Shown in pieces: positions 19,656 to 39,200 of a stretch of 39,200 nucleotides of DNA; within the stretch, counting starts at the first letter, position 1; the number at the start of each line of letters is the position of its first letter. The notes beneath the pieces were generated by a model. The model was not told where the DNA came from and ran no database searches. It saw only the letters and a list, made by a program, of their open reading frames with translations. Source of the stretch: a virus. The translations under genes and the position numbers were made by a program. Where the stretch lies: positions 1-39,200 of the IMG/VR virus record IMGVR_UViG_3300046642_000470; one strand, written 5' to 3'.

Positions 19656-22600
19656 ATGCCGAAGACCGGTACAGCCGTTGAGCTGCTGCTCGGCGGGGTG
19701 TGGACGGACATCACCTCGCGGACGTACCTGCGCGACCGCATCACCATCGCGCGCGGCCGGCGCGACGAGGGGTCCCGCGTGGACCCCTCGTCGTGCACCC
19801 TGACCCTCAACAACAAGGCGGGGTATTTCTCGCCCCGCAACCCCCTGTCGCCGCTGTACGGGCTGATCGGCCGCAACACGCCGATCCGCGTGTCAACGGC
19901 CGCTGGCTCGCCGTTCCTCGACCTGCCGGCGACCGGCCCCGCCCGCGCCCGGGCGAGCACGCCCACCGCGGCGGCGCTCAACGTCGCCGGTGACCTTGAC
20001 GTGCGGTTCGACGTGCAGCCGGACGACTGGTACGCCACGACCGTCGTAGAACTCGGCGGCAAATGGGGCGCGGCCGGCCAGCGCAGTTGGCACGCCTTCC
20101 TCAACTCCGGGTTCATCGAGATCGGCTGGACAACGGACGGGACGACCGAAGTCCTTGCCGCGGTGTCGCTCGGCTCGGCGGCGCTCACGCCCCGCATGGT
20201 GGTCCGCGTCGTCCTGGACGTGAACAACGGCGCCGGCGGGAAGACGGTCCGGTTCTACTGCGGGCCGAGCATGGCCGGGCCTTGGACGCAGATCGCCAGC
20301 GATCAGACGTTCGCAGGCACGGCGTCGATCTTCGCGTCGACTGCCGCCCTGGAAATCGGCGACGTGACCTCGACCGCCAGCGTGGACGCTGCCGCGCACC
20401 TGTTCGCCGCTCAGGTGCGATCTGGGATCGACGGCACGATCGTTGCCAACCCAGATTTCACCGCGCAGACAGTCGGCGCCACATCGTTCTCCGACAGTGT
20501 GCACGTGCCGTGGACGGTCACGGCCAGCGGCATCGGCAACAAGCGCGTCAGGTTCGTCGGCGAAGTGAGCAGTTGGCCTGCCCGGTGGGACGTGTCCGGC
20601 GGTGACGTGTACGTACCGGTGCAGGCGGCTGGCATCATGCGGCGCCTGGGGCAGGGCGCCGACCCGCTGCAATCCACGCTGCGACGTCGCATCCCATCCG
20701 ACCCGAACCTGATCGCCTATTGGCCGATGGAGGACGGCGCCAACTCGACGCAGGGCTACAGCCCGCTTCCCGGCGTCGCCCCCATGGTCACCAGCGGAAT
20801 GACCTTCTCCAGTGACGCGAGCCTTGCCGGATCCTCGGCGCTGCCCGTGCTGGGGCCCGTGTCGTCGATGTCGGGCGTTGTCCCGTCGTCGTCGACCGGC
20901 TCATGGCGAGTCGAGTTCGTGTACCGGATCGACACGGCGCCAGCCCTTGACTTCAACGCGCAGTTCGTTGTTGTCCAGACCGATCAAGCGCAGTGGCGCG
21001 TCGGGGTCGGCGCAAGCTTCATTCACCTGGATGTGACAGCGCCCGACGGCACGAGTCTGGTGTCAACAGCGATCGTTCCTACCGCGTTCTTCGGCTCGTG
21101 GTCACGTTTCGTCCTACACGCCAAGCCCTCCGGCGGATCCGTGGCATACGAAATTCTGTGGATCACCATTGGCGGCATTGCGCAGGTATCCGGTGGCACC
21201 TTTACAGGAGCGGTCGGGCACATTACGCGCGTCGCCGCCTCTCATGGCAGCGCACTTCAGGGCATGCCGCTCGGCCACATCGGCGTGTTCTCCGCATACG
21301 ACAGCACCATCTTCAACAGCGCCGACAGGGCGTTCGACGGCGACTCGGCGGACGGGCGCATGACACGGCTGGCTGCCGAGGAGAGTACGCCGCTGCTTCG
21401 GCCGTACGGCCCGGCTGGCGATGTGCTGGTGGGTCCGCAGCGGCCTGACACGCTGCTGAACCTCGTGCAGGAGGCTGCCACGGCAGACGTGGGCATCTTG
21501 TACGAGCCACGGCACGTGATCGCCCTCGCAGCCCGGCCGCGCACGTCGCTCTACAACCAGGCGACGGCGCTCGCCCTCGACTACTCGCGGCAGGGCGATG
21601 TTGCGCCGCCGTTGGAGCCGACGGAGGACGACCAGGCGACCCGCAACGACGTGACCCGCTCGCGGCCGTCGGGCAGCTCGGCGCGGGCCACGCTCGACAC
21701 CGGGACGCTGTCCACCGCGGCGCCGCCGCTCGGCGTCGGCCGGTACACGGACAGCAGCAGCGTCAACGTCCACACGGACGACCAACTGCCCGATCAGGCG
21801 GCGTGGTGGCTGCACCTGGGCACGTGGGATGAGGCCCGCTATCCGTCGGTCACGGTGAATCTGGCGGCAGCCGGCCGGCTGATCGACCAGGCGACCGCGG
21901 TGGACATCGGCGACCGTCTCACCATCGGTAACCCACCAGTGTGGGTGGCGCCCGGGGTGATCGACCTGATCGCCGAGGGCTACACCGAGACGATCGGCTG
22001 GGCTGACTGGACTATCACCTACAACTGCACGCCAGCCGGCCCGTGGTCCGTGGCCGTGTCGGATGATCCGGTGCTCGGCCGGGCGGATACGGACGGCTCG
22101 CAGCTCGCTGCCAGCGTCACAGCGACCGCCACCACGCTGAGTGTGGCGGTCACCGCAGGCCCGCTGTGGACGACCGACCCCGCCGAGTACCCGTTCGACC
22201 TCCGGGTGGGCGGCGAGGTCGTCACCGCGCGCGCGGCTGGCACGCCGCTCGACCTCGTTGACGGCACGTTCGAGTCGGGCGTGTCCGGCTGGACTCCGAC
22301 GGGCGGCACGTTCGCGCCGTCCACGGACGCTCACACCGGCACGGGGTCGGGCGTCCTGACCGTGGCCGGGTCGCCGACGCAGGCGTTCGTGCGGCCGGAC
22401 ACCACCCACCAGCCGGCAGCCACCCCGGGCGTGGAATACCGCTACTCGGTGTGGGTCAAGGCCAGTGCGGGATGGACGGCCATGGCCGCTATCGACTGGC
22501 TCAACTCCAGTCACGCCCTGCTGTCGACGGCATCAGGTACCAGCGTCGGCCTCACGGCCGGCGTGTGGACCCTGCTCACGGTCACCGCAACCGCGCCGGC

Positions 22601-25057: not shown

Positions 25058-25810
25058 TCAGAGGTCGACGGCGAACTCAACCACGGTCGCGTCACCTCTG
25101 CGGACGATCGGGTGTGCGACCTCGACGACGCGGCCCGCGGCGAGGTGCCGCCGGGTGAATCGGACGACGGGCACGGCGGCGCCGATGTGCAGTGTCTCCG
25201 CCTCGGCCGGCGTGGGCATGCCCACGGTGAACGCCTCGGTGATCCTGTCGACGACGATGCCGAGTGTGGCGAGCTGCGCCCGAGTGCCGCCCGGCCAGGG
25301 CTCATTGATGGGGTCGGCGACGGGCGTGCCGCCCACGTCCGACCAGCGCACGTAGCTGGTGGACATCTGCGAGGGCTGATCGTTGTCGTAGAACACGAAG
25401 TGCCGTGCGAGCAGGGGCAGGCCCGGCTCATCCTCGAACAGCGCGGCCAAGTTGGGGCCCGCCTTGATCTGCTCGAACCGCTTGTCGAGCCGGTACTCGC
25501 TCCATCCGATGCCCTGGTCGCGGGTGAATGCGGTCTGCGGCTGGCCGCCGGGCGGCGTCCGGTAGCGGTCGGCGGCGAGTCGGTGCACGGGCGGTCGCTC
25601 GCGTACGACGGTGCCCGCGCGGGTGCGCGACTCGACCAGGCCCTCACCGCGCAGGAGGCCGACGGCGTTGCGGGCGGTCGTCTCGCTGACGCCGTACGTG
25701 GCGCACAGCTCGGGCAGGGTAGGCAGGCGGTCGCCGGGCCGCAGGGCGCCGCTGGTGATCTGGTCGCGCAACTCGGCCGCGATGCGCAGGTACTCGGGCC
25801 GCTCAGCCAC
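25058..25810 (-). CDS. GntR/HutC-family transcription regulator with UTRA domain
   Basis: 250 aa. Residues 1-72 are a GntR winged helix: PEYLRIAAELRDQITSGAL, RPGDRLPTLPELCATYGVS and ETTARNAVGLLRGEGLVESR contain the expected Pro, Leu and Arg positions. Residues 90-245 are a UTRA ligand-binding domain (APNLAALFEDEPGLPLLARH-like strand, RFTRRHLAAGRVVEVA near the end). I choose GTG 25810 because GGAGGG lies 8 nt upstream; the GTG at 25819 overlaps that site. The gene is divergent from the 25955 cassette, with three 14-bp operators between. GntR regulators of this branch also control conjugative elements in Streptomyces. Confidence 0.92.
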   Translation of the reverse strand: MAERPEYLRIAAELRDQITSGALRPGDRLPTLPELCATYGVSETTARNAVGLLRGEGLVESRTRAGTVVRERPPVHRLAADRYRTPPGGQPQTAFTRDQGIGWSEYRLDKRFEQIKAGPNLAALFEDEPGLPLLARHFVFYDNDQPSQMSTSYVRWSDVGGTPVADPINEPWPGGTRAQLATLGIVVDRITEAFTVGMPTPAEAETLHIGAAVPVVRFTRRHLAAGRVVEVAHPIVRRGDATVVEFAVDL

Positions 25811-25841
25811 GCGCGCCACCCTCCGGAGTGATCGGCTCGGA

Positions 25842-27046: not shown

Positions 27047-27292
27047 CTACGCACTGCCGTCGGTGACCAGCTCGGCGAGCGGCACCCGGATCTCGTGTGC
27101 GATCAGCATCAGGTCACTGATCCGTGCGTCGGTCGTGCCGCGCTCGATCGCCTGGTACGTGGACCGGGGGATGCCCGTTGCGAGGTACACGGCCTCTTGT
27201 GTCCGGTTCCGGTGCATGCGGGCCGCTCGGATGCGGTCGCCGAGTCGGCGGCGGGCAGGGGGCAGCCAGTCGGGCTGTGGATCACGGGGCAC
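27047..27292 (-). CDS. Small XRE/Cro-CI HTH protein, 81 aa
   Basis: Residues 14-72 are a full HTH_3 domain: RLGDRIRAARMHRNRTQEAVYL, GIPRSTYQAIERGTTDARIS and MLIAHEIRVPLAEL show the usual five-helix pattern with the recognition helix RSTYQAIERG. The start is a GTG without a clear ribosome-binding site, so translation may be leaderless or weak. The gene is leftward and lies on the far side of the attP candidate from the integrase; integration there would separate the two. It may be a host-specific or secondary repressor. Confidence 0.8.
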   Translation of the reverse strand: MPRDPQPDWLPPARRRLGDRIRAARMHRNRTQEAVYLATGIPRSTYQAIERGTTDARISDLMLIAHEIRVPLAELVTDGSA

Positions 27293-27625: not shown

Positions 27626-27657
27626 GTGCCCCCGCCGCATGGCCGCGACGGGGGCAC
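27626..27657 (-). terminator. Hairpin downstream of the integrase gene
   Basis: Perfect 9-bp stem, GTGCCCCCG with CGGGGGCAC. It is 74 nt past the integrase stop, on the far side of the attP candidate, and could end the leftward repressor-integrase transcript. There is no U-tract. Confidence 0.45.
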
Positions 27658-27660
27658 ACG

Positions 27661-27704
27661 CCTGTTTTAGCGGCACTGTCGAGGGACAACGCCGGTAAAA
27701 CAGG
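27661..27704. other. attP: Candidate attP for the serine integrase
   Basis: A 44-bp imperfect palindrome: outer arms CCTGTTTTA and TAAAACAGG, inner CGGC/GCCG and TGTC/GACA, around the asymmetric centre GAGG (27681-27684). Of the 20 symmetrical pairs outside the centre, 17 match. Serine integrase attP sites are about 50 bp, imperfectly palindromic with an asymmetric central dinucleotide, and usually next to the integrase gene; this one starts 27 bp from its end. A terminator is the main alternative. Confidence 0.55.
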
Positions 27705-27730
27705 TGCGTACGGACAGCAGTAAGCGCAGG

Positions 27731-29359
27731 TCAGGATGGGACGGCCGTCTCCCATGGGTCCGGCTCCCACAGGGGGTGGATCTCGATGTGCACGGTGCGG
27801 CTGCGGTGCGCCTGGCGGGTGCACGTCACCCGGCGGACGAGCTTGCGCAAGATGGCGTTTCGCTCCCCCGGTTCCATGGCGATCCAGCCGTCGGCGATGG
27901 ACAGCAGCAGCGGCGCATAGTCGACGGCCTGCGGTTGCGCTGCCTGCTCGGCCGCAGCGTTGAGCGCGGCCGTCACGGCGGCCTGCTGCTGCCGGATGCG
28001 GTCGCGGGCCGCCTCGTACTCGCCCGGCCCCCAGTCGTCCGGGTCGGTGGCGCGCTGCACACGCAGGTTGGCGAGCGCTGCGGCGTGCCGGGCGGACTCG
28101 GCCTGTAGCCGCTCGACCTCGGCGCGGGCGCGGGCCCGGTCGTCTACAGCCGGCGCGGCCTGCTCGGCGGAGCGCAGCTCGCGGGACGCCTCGGCGTGCT
28201 GCCGTAGCCACGTCTGCACCTCATCCTCGAGGACGGCGCGCTGCACCCACACGCCCGCGGCGCAGACGCTCGTGCCGGCGTGGGCGCGGGCGCCGCACAT
28301 GTAGGCGTAGCCGAGCACCTGCGCGCCGCGGCGGCGGGCGCTGGTTGCGCCCGCGTCGCCGCGGCAGGTTCCGCACCGTACGAGACCGGTGAGCGTATAG
28401 AGGGGTACGCGTGCGCGTGGCGCGCGGGCGCGGTTGTCGGCGCGGTGCTCCTGGTACTGCTCCCACGTCTCCGGGGTGATCAGCGCGTCGTGGGCACCAT
28501 CAATGTGCGTCCACCTCGAGCACCGGCCGCCGGCCGCGGTGTAGTCGCAGCCGCATTCGGGGTCGTGGACGCGCAGGAGGCCGGCGGCAAAGCCGGAGTC
28601 GAGGTACCGGCGCAGGCTGTCTGCCTGGTACAGCTCGTCGCGGCGGGTGCGGAGGCCGAGGGTGTTGATCCGTTCGGCGAGCGCTCCGTACCCGGCTCCG
28701 GCCAGCTTGCGCGTGTAGAGATCGGCGACAACTTCGCCGTGGTCGGGGTGCGGTTCGTACCACTCGCGTTGGAGAATCCACTCCCCCGGGTGTTGGGGGT
28801 CCGGCAGGCGCCGCGGGTGCCAGATGTAGCCGAGGCGTCGGCCGCCGGTGGCTGGCAGGCCGAGCGCGCGTCGCCAGGCGTGTGTGTCTTTCCACTGCTC
28901 GCCGGCGCGGTCCGACTCGAACACCGCGAGGTCGAACAGGATGGCGCGGTTGAACTTGCCGACGGCCGTGGTGGCGTCGAAATCCTCGGTGGCGCTGGCC
29001 AGTTCGCCGCCGGCGTGGCGCAGGCGGCCGAGGTTGACGGCGATGCCGAGGTCGTTGCGGCCGAATCGGCTGTACTTCCAGACGGCGATGCCGCGGGCTT
29101 CGCGCCGCTCGCATGACTCGATGCCGCGCATGATCTTGCGCTTGAAGTTTCGCCCGGTGGCGTCCAGGTCGATGATCCATGCCACGATGCGGCGCCGGGT
29201 GCGGGCGGCCCATGCCTCGATGGCGGACCGCTGTAGCTCGGGGCTGATCTTCTCTTCGCGCCAGGTGGACACCCGGATGTAGCCGATCCAGGGTTCCCAG
29301 TCGTCGTCTGCGCTGTGCAGCGTGGGTCCGCGTAGGGCGGGCGGCACGTCGGTGGTCAC
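27731..29359 (-). CDS. int: Large serine integrase
   Basis: 542 aa. The resolvase domain begins WIGYIRVST with catalytic S31 (R29 adjacent); IDLDATGRNFKR and WKYSRFGRN give the conserved Asp, Gly and Arg residues (R98, R101), and FDLAVFESDRAGE the long helix start. A recombinase domain follows, then a zinc ribbon (LVRCGTCRGDAG, later YMCGARAHAGTSVCAAG) and a coiled-coil C-terminal domain. It inserts phage DNA at attB without host factors. The GTG start overlaps the upstream gene's stop (GTGA on the minus strand), so it is made from the same transcript as the membrane protein and probably the repressor. Confidence 0.95.
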   Translation of the reverse strand: MTTDVPPALRGPTLHSADDDWEPWIGYIRVSTWREEKISPELQRSAIEAWAARTRRRIVAWIIDLDATGRNFKRKIMRGIESCERREARGIAVWKYSRFGRNDLGIAVNLGRLRHAGGELASATEDFDATTAVGKFNRAILFDLAVFESDRAGEQWKDTHAWRRALGLPATGGRRLGYIWHPRRLPDPQHPGEWILQREWYEPHPDHGEVVADLYTRKLAGAGYGALAERINTLGLRTRRDELYQADSLRRYLDSGFAAGLLRVHDPECGCDYTAAGGRCSRWTHIDGAHDALITPETWEQYQEHRADNRARAPRARVPLYTLTGLVRCGTCRGDAGATSARRRGAQVLGYAYMCGARAHAGTSVCAAGVWVQRAVLEDEVQTWLRQHAEASRELRSAEQAAPAVDDRARARAEVERLQAESARHAAALANLRVQRATDPDDWGPGEYEAARDRIRQQQAAVTAALNAAAEQAAQPQAVDYAPLLLSIADGWIAMEPGERNAILRKLVRRVTCTRQAHRSRTVHIEIHPLWEPDPWETAVPS

Positions 29360-29700
29360 TGGTCTGCGGTCCTCTCCGTGTTGCTGATGGATCGGAGGTG
29401 TCCACGCGCGTAGCTGTTGGGCGCGTCGGCGCCCCCGTCGGGCGGGGTGAGGAGGCCGAGGGCGGCGTGTGCGAGGCCCGTGCGGTAGCCGTCGGCGTGT
29501 GCGGCGGCGAGCTGTTCGGGGGTGACGGCCGCTGCACGACGTGTTTGTGAGGCGCAGATGAGGGGGCACGAGGCGAACATCATCACCAGCCCGCCGCGAA
29601 GGATCATCTTCGGTATGGCGGCGTCGAGGCCGGCGACGGTGGCAAGGATGCCTGCGGTTGCCGCGGCAATGCTGATGATGTTGAGCGTGCGGGTGTGCAA
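29356..29700 (-). CDS. Small membrane protein upstream of integrase, 114 aa
   Basis: It starts at a TTG 6 nt after GGAGGG. Residues 8-25 and 31-50 are hydrophobic (ISIAAATAGILATVAG and KMILRGGLVMMFASCPLIC), two likely membrane spans; the remainder, with PEQLAAAHADGYRTGLAHAA, is a soluble helix. The stop overlaps the integrase GTG. It lies between repressor and integrase, where some temperate phages keep superinfection-exclusion genes; that role is only inferred from position. Confidence 0.7.
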   Translation of the reverse strand: MHTRTLNIISIAAATAGILATVAGLDAAIPKMILRGGLVMMFASCPLICASQTRRAAAVTPEQLAAAHADGYRTGLAHAALGLLTPPDGGADAPNSYARGHLRSISNTERTADQ

Positions 29701-29716: not shown

Positions 29717-30181
29717 TCAGTCGGCCCGCTTTCTGTCGGACCGTTCCTGCTGTACCGCGCGCGCGGCCTCGACTTGGGCGACGAACAGTCGGATCGCGGT
29801 GGGGTCCACGATGCCGAGGTCGCGGGCTGCGTCCTCTGGGGTGATCGGTGGGCGGTCGATCGGGGGCGCTGCCTGTGCGGCGTTGAGTTCGTCTGCGGTG
29901 AGAACGCCGGCTCGTACGAGTAGCTCGGGGAAGGGCAGGCCGAGCGTTTCGGCGATGCGGCGCAGGTTCTCGGGGTCGGGGTTGAGCGCGGTGCCGGTGA
30001 GAATCCGGCTGATGGTGGCCTGGCTGAGGCCGGTTTGTTCAGCGAGTCGGCGTTGGCCGCCGCCTCGTGCGGTGAGGTTGTAATCGCGCTCGATCATGCG
30101 GTCGTAGAGCCAGGCCGCGAAGCGCTGCGCGGTGGCACGGCGGTCGGCGCTGGACAGGCGGGAGGGCTGCGTCTGTTCCAT
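29717..30181 (-). CDS. XRE-family repressor, probable lysogeny regulator
   Basis: 154 aa. Residues 20-85 contain an HTH_3 domain: RFAAWLYDRMIERDYNLTA, then RRLAEQTGLSQATISRILTG and NLRRIAETLGLPFPELLV, with the recognition helix QATISRILTG. The C-terminal half is a separate helical region (PEDAARDLGIVDPTAIRLFV). I choose ATG 30181 rather than an upstream start because the TACATT -10 ends 7 nt before it, so the mRNA is probably leaderless. It heads the leftward operon repressor, membrane protein, integrase, and faces the rightward early genes. Best candidate for the immunity repressor. Confidence 0.85.
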   Translation of the reverse strand: MEQTQPSRLSSADRRATAQRFAAWLYDRMIERDYNLTARGGGQRRLAEQTGLSQATISRILTGTALNPDPENLRRIAETLGLPFPELLVRAGVLTADELNAAQAAPPIDRPPITPEDAARDLGIVDPTAIRLFVAQVEAARAVQQERSDRKRAD

Positions 30182-30185
30182 GCAA

Positions 30186-30206
30186 GAAATGTACCGCTCG
30201 TGGAAC
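30186..30206 (-). promoter_or_regulatory. Promoter/operator motif B, repressor gene
   Basis: On the minus strand this reads GTTCCACGAGCGGTACATTT plus C, with -10 TACATT at 30193-30188. It matches motif A at 18 of 21 positions, and the match extends upstream through ACGGTTG. The -10 lies 7 nt from the repressor ATG, placing the transcript start at or next to that codon. Confidence 0.65.
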
Positions 30207-30218
30207 ATCACCAACCGT

Positions 30219-30332: not shown

Positions 30333-30376
30333 CCAGGTACAGCCTGACATTTTCATCGCCGCGAACGGTTGTGCTC

Positions 30377-30397
30377 GTTCCACGTGTGGTACGTTTC
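30377..30397 (+). promoter_or_regulatory. Promoter/operator motif A, early rightward operon
   Basis: GTTCCACGTGTGG then TACGTT (30390-30395) preceded by TGG, an extended -10. The part GTTCCACGTGTGGTAC is nearly symmetrical (GTnCCACnnGTGGnAC), as expected for a dimeric repressor. The transcript should start near 30402, and its first bases contain the hairpin TGCAAG-CAAGC-CTTGCA (30403-30419). Confidence 0.7.
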
Positions 30398-30437
30398 TTT
30401 TGTGCAAGCAAGCCTTGCAGGGAAGGAACGTACTGCC

Positions 30438-30650
30438 ATGTACGACAGAACCAAGCTGCGCGAGGCCGCGGCCCGCTGCGGGGACACCAACAGCAACCGC
30501 GTCGCCATCCGGCTGGGCATCCCCCGGACGACTGCGTTCCGGCTGTGGAAGGGCACGGCCGCCCCGTCCGCCACTGTCGCCGCCGCCGTGCAGCGCGCGT
30601 ACTGCGTGCCCACGGCTGAGCTGCTGATCGCGCTGGAGTCGGCGGCGTGA
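30438..30650 (+). CDS. Cro-like HTH protein, 70 aa
   Basis: ATG behind GGGAAGGA. Residues 5-60 form an HTH: TKLREAAARCGDTNSNRVAI, RLGIPRTTAFRLWKGTAAPS and AVQRAYCVPTAELLIAL have the Cro/C1 helix order with PRTTAFRLWKG as recognition helix. It is the first gene of the rightward early operon and is divergent from the XRE repressor, the classical place of Cro. It probably opposes the repressor at motifs A and B. Confidence 0.75.
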   Translation: MYDRTKLREAAARCGDTNSNRVAIRLGIPRTTAFRLWKGTAAPSATVAAAVQRAYCVPTAELLIALESAA

Positions 30651-35888: not shown

Positions 35889-36794
35889 TTGAGCGTCACC
35901 GCCATGCAGTGGGTGTGGGACAAGGCCAACGCCCGCGGCAACGCGCGGCTCGTGCTGCTCGCCGTCGCCGACAAGGCGCCCGGCCCTGACTGCACCGCCC
36001 GCATCGGCACCACCGAGATGGTGCGGCGCGTCAACGGCGCCCGATCGTCGGTCATCGTCGCCATCGACAAGGCCATCGAGAGCGGCGAACTGACCGTCAT
36101 CGAGGCCGCCGCCGGCAGTCGCGCAGCGCTCTACCAACTGCCCATGGCCGTCGGCTACTCGCGGCTTACCGGTCCGGAAACCGGACCCCTAGGCGGTGAA
36201 CCGGACCGGTCCGGAAACCGGACCCCTAAGCCCTCTCGGTCCGGAAACCGGACCCCTAACCCGGTGCCTACCGGTCCGGAAACCGGACCCCTAGACCGGA
36301 CCCCCGAAATGGCTTTGTGGTCCGAAAACCGGACCCCTAGGGGTCCGGAAACCGGACCCCATCACTCACCCAATGAAGGAGTGAGTGAAGGAGTGGTTGA
36401 GGCGCGCGGCCCCGAACGGCGCACCGCAGTCATTCCCGAGTTCGCCCGCCCCCTGGTCGACACCCTCACCGCTTCCGGCGTCGTCGTGAAGTGGTCGCTC
36501 GGCGAAGGCGAGTGGTTCTCCCTCGACCACCTGATCCAGCGCAGCGGCGCCGACATGCTCGCCGCCGAAGCCGTCAAGGTCGCCGCCCGCACCACCGTCT
36601 CGCACGCCCGGTACTTCCTCCGCGCCTGGCGCGACCTGCCGCCCGCACCCGCCGCCGGAACCGCCCCCGTCATCCCGCAGCACGCCGGCCCCAACGTCGT
36701 GCCGTTCGACGCCACACAGCCGCGCCGCAGCCGCGCCCAACGCACAGCCGACGAACTCGCCCTCATCCTCGCCAGAGAGGCAGCCCAGCAGTGA
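35889..36794 (+). CDS. Replication initiator with internal iteron array
   Basis: 301 aa from a TTG, 8 nt after AGGAG. Residues 1-85 are a winged-helix domain of the phage replisome-organiser type (VTAMQWVWDKANARGNARLV, CTARIGTTEMVRRVNGARSS). The region encoded by 36171-36362 is low complexity (GPETGPL and SGNRTP repeats) because it contains six DNA iterons. A C-terminal domain with EGEWFSLDHLIQRSG follows. Lambda O has the same layout: DNA-binding N-terminus, iterons inside its gene, C-terminal recruitment domain. It probably binds its own gene to start replication. Confidence 0.85.
   Translation: MSVTAMQWVWDKANARGNARLVLLAVADKAPGPDCTARIGTTEMVRRVNGARSSVIVAIDKAIESGELTVIEAAAGSRAALYQLPMAVGYSRLTGPETGPLGGEPDRSGNRTPKPSRSGNRTPNPVPTGPETGPLDRTPEMALWSENRTPRGPETGPHHSPNEGVSEGVVEARGPERRTAVIPEFARPLVDTLTASGVVVKWSLGEGEWFSLDHLIQRSGADMLAAEAVKVAARTTVSHARYFLRAWRDLPPAPAAGTAPVIPQHAGPNVVPFDATQPRRSRAQRTADELALILAREAAQQ
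36171..36362. repeat. ori: Iteron array, probable origin of replication
   Basis: Six near-identical copies, each with the 17-bp palindrome GGTCCGGAAACCGGACC followed by CCTA, begin at 36171, 36208, 36238, 36273, 36319 and 36342. Copy 5 has one changed base (GGTCCGAAAA) and copy 6 ends CCAT. Half-sites CCGGACC occur at 36201 and 36296. Distances between starts are 37, 30, 35, 46 and 23 bp. A flanking 8-bp inverted repeat, TCACTCAC with GTGAGTGA, lies at 36362-36388. Confidence 0.85.
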
Positions 36795-38727: not shown

Positions 38728-39200
38728 GTGAACGACACCACCATCACCCTGTGCGGCAACGCCGTAGACGACGCTGAGCTTCGTTTCACGCCGTCCGGCG
38801 CCGCCGTCGCCAACGTCCGTGTGGCCAGCACGCCGCGCCGCTTCAACAAGCAGACGAACGAGTGGGAGGACGGCGAGCCGCTGTTCCTCGGCGTCACCTG
38901 CTGGAAGCAGCACGCCGAGAACGTCGCCGAGACCGTGCGCCGCGGCATGCGCCTGATCGTCACCGGCCGCCTGACGCAGCGGCAGTACGAGGCCAAGGAC
39001 GGCACCAAGCGGTCGTCCTACGAGATCGCCGACGCCGAGATCGCCGTCTCGCTGCTGCACGCCACCGCCGCCATCACCAAGACCACCGGCCAGGGCCAGG
39101 GCCAGGGCGGACAGCGCGGCCAGCAGCAGCGCCCCCCGCAGCAGAACGGCGGCGGCTGGGGCACCGCGACCGGCGCGACCGGCGGCGACCCCTGGGCCAC
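38728..39200 (+). CDS. ssb: Single-strand DNA-binding protein, N-terminal part
   Basis: The GTG start, behind AAGG, gives [20 protein letters not shown], then [14 protein letters not shown] and [20 protein letters not shown], and [20 protein letters not shown], the conserved OB-fold strands of bacterial SSB. The tail is a Gly/Gln-rich linker. The frame runs off the window end at 39200 and continues at the beginning, finishing at 164. SSB protects single strands during replication and recombination and is downstream of HNH in the same unit. Confidence 0.95.
39074..39200. repeat. Terminal direct repeat, right copy
   Basis: Identical to 1-127. Removing one copy gives a circular sequence of 39,073 bp with an uninterrupted ssb gene. 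Confidence 0.97.

Follow-up and report, generated by a model that had tools for sequence, protein, structure and literature searches.

What is the role of the imperfect palindrome that lies just beyond the integrase gene of this phage? The window (the whole stretch of DNA analysed here, 39,200 nucleotides) is a virus record that begins and ends with the same 127 bases (1–127 and 39074–39200), and is therefore a completely assembled circle of 39,073 bp. The exact 127-bp end repeat has the length of an assembler k-mer, and the record is classed as being without end repeats. The terminase gene starts near 6.4 kb and aligns with base 91 of phage SV1; thus, the record is a circular permutation of a linear SV1/Raleigh-type phage genome. 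We conclude, with a probability of about 95%, that this is a temperate Streptomyces-type phage whose large serine integrase belongs to the SV1 family, and that the palindrome is its attP site; the predicted attB lies in the Walker B codons of yifB/comM.

A single palindrome follows a large serine integrase gene

Three features define the locus:

27731–29359, minus strand: large serine integrase gene (int), 542 aa, with a chosen GTG start (from Pfam, PHROG and identity to the SV1 family)
27661–27704: 44-bp imperfect palindrome, core of the predicted attP (17/20 arm matches; homology to SV1 attP and to the centrally split palindromes of three prophages)
27626–27657: separate GC-rich hairpin adjoining attP (13-bp arms, 92% complementary; fold z ~−4)

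The int product has the domains of large serine integrases: an N-terminal resolvase catalytic domain (Resolvase PF00239, 5.9e-18), a recombinase domain (PF07508, 1.1e-10) and a zinc ribbon (PF13408, 7.4e-5, slightly under the curated Pfam cut-off). It also matches the PHROG integrase family at 2.8e-83. The protein is 50–61% identical to SV1-family integrases (50% to SV1 itself, over 99% of the length), and sequence kinship, its place in the integrase tree and an attP 3′ of int make it a member of that family.

The initial annotation described a 44-bp imperfect palindrome with 17 of 20 symmetrical matches around an asymmetric centre, 27 bp from the integrase stop. Both descriptions hold: CCTGTTTTAGCGGCACTGTC-GAGG-GACAACGCCGGTAAAACAGG occupies 27661–27704 with 17/20 arm matches, and 27 bp separate its last base from the int stop codon. 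The symmetry extends to 25+25 nt (27656–27709, 80%) and reaches 18/24 when scored around the two central bases. No other 44-mer in the 39,073-bp genome attains 17/20 or better. This score was reached in 1 of 15 dinucleotide-preserving shuffles of the whole genome, and 18/24 in none of 500 simple shuffles of the 560 bp at the int 3′ end, where the best score was 17, obtained once. Taken alone, the symmetry is suggestive of a real site; the palindrome becomes convincing because relatives carry the same feature at the same place.

In 10 of the 11 related Streptomyces phage loci that we read, a palindrome of the same size lies 12–126 bp 3′ of int. The remaining locus, that of Mojorita, has no palindrome 3′ of int, and its integrase reading frame runs into the next gene. 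In SV1, the same scan places the palindrome ~126 bp beyond the int stop (record base 20651), at a position that coincides with the proven attP, bases 20504–20545. Fayed et al. had predicted that site and then proved it from the sequences of attB, attL and attR obtained in S. coelicolor (PMC4068962). Because the SV1 palindrome is the proven attP, the place and form of attP in the SV1 family are anchored to experiment. Length also agrees: attP sites of serine integrases are imperfect palindromes of ~42–69 bp (PMC4068962), a range that includes the 44–50 bp found here.

Related prophages break the palindrome at its centre, inside yifB

Integrase relatives were present at E ≤1e-50 in 24 of 393 Streptomyces genomes, with further ones found in the family, and S. 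montanisoli was the only match when genome contigs were scanned with the integrase. The three closest prophage integrases are those of G001 (S. montanisoli, 61% identity), G335 (59%) and G586 (58%). In each, half of a palindrome lies behind int and, from the centre on, continues in register into the 3′ part of yifB/comM, while the other half-palindrome is fused to the yifB 5′ part. The junctions lie at 58,360 and 96,721 in G001 (contig C222; 38.4 kb apart), at 128,775 and 170,342 in G335 (41.6 kb) and at 183,750 and ~224,100 in G586 (~40 kb), so that the prophages with the closest integrases measure 38–42 kb. When the flanks are joined they give an uninterrupted YifB frame, ...HRGVLFLDE[AT]PEF... 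(Pfam Mg_chelatase, 3.7e-85), and the insertion point falls in the Walker B codons LFLDE.

The initial annotation had named the junctions of Streptomyces prophages as the check on its attP reading. In all three relatives attL and attR break the homologous palindrome at its centre, and this, together with the proven SV1 attP at a homologous place, supports that reading. These prophages resemble the window in their integrases (58–61%) and in the attP motif; they differ in being integrated, not free, and their attP arms diverge at a quarter to 40% of positions.

The conserved features of the site emerged from a gap-free frame:

27659–27706, minus strand: 48-bp attP frame, CACCTGTTTTACCGGCGTTGTCC-CT-CGACAGTGCCGCTAAAACAGGCG in int orientation, aligned without gaps to the attP of phage Eklok and to those deduced from G001, G335 and G586
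27682–27683, minus strand: dinucleotide at which crossover is predicted, AG on the plus strand and CT in int orientation, from the register of the base pair common to attL and attR in G335 and G586

Two properties are shared by the five attP sites: (i) all have a CT centre; and (ii) all ten half-sites carry C at 21, TG at 19–18 and TTT at 16–14 bp from the centre. The half-palindromes in the prophage attL and attR sites bear the same outer motif, CYTGTTTT. A crossover dinucleotide has to be common to attL and attR, and in G335 and G586 this holds for CT. The G001 junctions have TT in attL and CT in attR, so that one of the two bases differs; a single later mutation would explain this mismatch, which is still a blemish. 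GAGG, initially proposed as the centre, thus stands as the centre of the palindrome and is narrowed, by register, to AG at 27682–27683 as the predicted crossover dinucleotide of the window.

In the integrase tree, the window, Eklok and the three yifB prophages form one clade with support 100/100. Outside it are SV1-type integrases, with AMP-binding-enzyme targets, and a clade with an exonuclease-type target. Members of this sister clade (with phage Vondra; loci L027, L044, L055 and L056) are integrated at an exonuclease III-type gene. Tree and junctions together seem to show one integrase family that switches targets with attP always 3′ of int.

yifB/comM is the predicted attB

Does the window phage itself use yifB? 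All three clade members with junctions read are integrated in this gene; the window is unintegrated and its circular genome keeps attP intact. Its core, CCTCGAC, fits the yifB codons TTC CTC GAC in register. Among 21 intact Streptomyces genes read at the insertion place, CCTCGAC occurs in eight (TTCCTCGAC in seven, TTTCTCGAC in one) and TTCCTGGAC in nine. CCTCGAC is therefore one of two common yifB sequences there, and because the window core equals it we take yifB as the predicted attB. The candidate site is predicted to carry GTGCTCTTC-CT-CGACGAGGCGCCC, and its host gene was found in 149 of the 150 Streptomyces genomes searched. When viral contigs were searched with the attP arms one by one and with a pattern of attL type, no lysogen of the window phage came up, for which reason attB stays a prediction; the arms recurred only in one contig, G701, 100% identical to the window. 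From the sequence comparisons, yifB/comM is most likely the integration gene, and we infer that the integrase binds and cleaves this attP and that the window phage itself uses yifB.

Could the palindrome be attP and yet pair with an attB in another gene? Targets do switch in the SV1 family, between SCO4383-type AMP-binding enzymes in SV1 and its relatives and the exonuclease III-type gene of the sister clade. Since SV1-family integrases at 45–57% identity use other genes, transfer of a target at ~60% identity is not automatic, and the window integrase is only ~60% identical to those of the yifB users. We nevertheless regard another gene as unlikely: the tree nests the window with Eklok and the three yifB users (support 100/100), half-site motif and CT centre are common to all of them, and the window core agrees in register with the yifB sequence.

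The identical contig G701 (L061, 12,723 bp) starts at window position 27660, one base outside the palindrome, and crosses the window ends. We considered its break as a trace of lysogeny but set this aside, since branching due to a lysogen would be expected to start from the centre, 27682; loss of coverage at the adjoining GC hairpin is likelier.

Besides G001, yifB gave two matches, at several positions, in 14 of the 149 genomes (G014, G031, G032, G034, G042, G050, G055, G064, G083, G084, G091, G093, G120 and G131). In G014, G055, G064, G131 and G050, yifB stops directly behind LFLD and a TTT(A/T)-type sequence takes over, which would be a different element using the same yifB codons. No close relative of the window integrase was seen in the other split-yifB Streptomyces genomes, viewed on one side.

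Terminator and operator as alternative roles

A palindrome 27 bp past a stop codon might instead end transcription of int, and of convergent transcripts, and its single-strand fold is indeed very stable on both strands (~−31 kcal/mol, z ~−6). However, whichever strand is read, the 5′ arm holds the U-rich stretch and the 3′ arm the A-rich one, opposite to the layout of an intrinsic terminator: the T and A runs lie inside the stem and in the wrong order, and a test for a GC stem followed by a T tract called no terminator-like site in the palindrome. A better terminator hairpin adjoins at 27626–27657 and, judged by its arms and fold, probably serves int or convergent transcription. Moreover, each of the three prophages has its homologous palindrome divided precisely at the centre; these junctions refute termination as the sole role of the palindrome, and a terminator in place of an attachment site is highly improbable.

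The genes that could bear on regulation are:

29356–29700, minus strand: small gene upstream of int, where relatives have a membrane-protein gene (PHROG 12722 and position)
29717–30214, minus strand: immunity repressor, upstream of the small gene and int (PHROG transcriptional repressor, 6.1e-24; homologue in nearly every related locus)
30369–30650, plus strand: Cro-like gene, divergent from the repressor (PHROG repressor, 1.2e-10; homologues in relatives annotated Cro)
27047–27292, minus strand: small XRE-type gene on the attR side of attP (Pfam HTH_3, 1.1e-11)

That the palindrome is an operator, whether of the small XRE regulator or of the repressor, is scarcely credible. Regulators of this type do bind inverted repeats and the XRE gene is ~370 bp away, but a length of 44–50 bp exceeds that of a single XRE operator, the conserved repressor lies ~2 kb away between the small gene and Cro, and phages without the XRE gene still have the palindrome 3′ of int. 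The XRE gene has no homologue in the related loci examined, the attR ends of the three prophages included.

Integration had been expected to part int from the XRE gene. The geometry is correct, with int at one end and XRE ~370 bp inside the other, but this separation has no visible importance: no relative has an XRE homologue near attR, and the conserved repressor stays beside int. The lysogeny control genes are the repressor (29717–30214) and the Cro-like gene (30369–30650), both of which stay with int.

Two further elements were noted. A GntR/UTRA-type regulator gene lies between the lysis genes and attP (25058–25819, minus strand; PHROG 10724), and the early region at 36160–36360 holds a cluster of inverted and direct repeats of the GGTCCGGAAACCGGACC type, possibly binding sites.

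A model for integration

How would the phage integrate? Large serine integrases bind attP and attB as dimers, which come together as a tetramer; all four strands are then cleaved at the central 2 bp and, after rotation, sealed again. In the window phage, an integrase dimer would bind the two half-sites through the outer motif CYTGTTTT, ~14–21 bp from the centre. attP would then pair with the bacterial attB, both would be cut at the central CT (27682–27683), and the ends, rejoined after rotation, would yield a 39.07-kb prophage in the order attL-int-small gene-repressor-Cro-...-structural genes-lysis-XRE-attR. The host yifB would be split in two and truncated after LFLD.

In other bacteria, yifB/comM is tied to DNA uptake and recombination, and comK prophages in Listeria restore their gene by precise excision. 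Insertion into the Walker B codons might likewise act as an on/off switch reversed by precise excision, not as neutral parking, a speculative reading to which we give little credence.

Comparison with known systems

Int and attP of this locus make up a complete pair that can be tested, and the attB predicted for it lies in a widespread Streptomyces gene. With a predicted target other than the one used by the SV1 vector, the pair could be developed into a further integrating vector. The clade shows one integrase family moving between target genes while the attP layout is kept.

SV1 shares with the window its integrase family (50%), an imperfectly palindromic attP of the same length class 3′ of int, and the order repressor-small gene-int. 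In contrast, its attB is SCO4383 (4-coumarate-CoA ligase-like) with a CA core, whereas yifB and a CT core are predicted here. Eklok and its near-identical relatives are like the window in clade, CT centre and CYTGTTTT arms (integrase, 57%); the Eklok palindrome lies 61 bp 3′ of int, and the two attP sites are identical at 33 of 48 positions.

According to Durrant et al. 2022 (PMC10083194), 12.4% of the site-specific serine integrases predicted target the Mg-chelatase-like gene, which is also reported as the target of Wolbachia sr1WO prophages (PMC9203015). Both sets share the target gene family of the window clade but belong to other integrase lineages. A literature search for SV1-family integrases in yifB found none, while other lineages in yifB are known. 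A palindromic attP beside int is the rule for large serine integrases and yifB is an already favoured target: the attP finding is ordinary, expected and solidly supported, and what is new is this particular int/attP pair and the link of an SV1-family branch to yifB.
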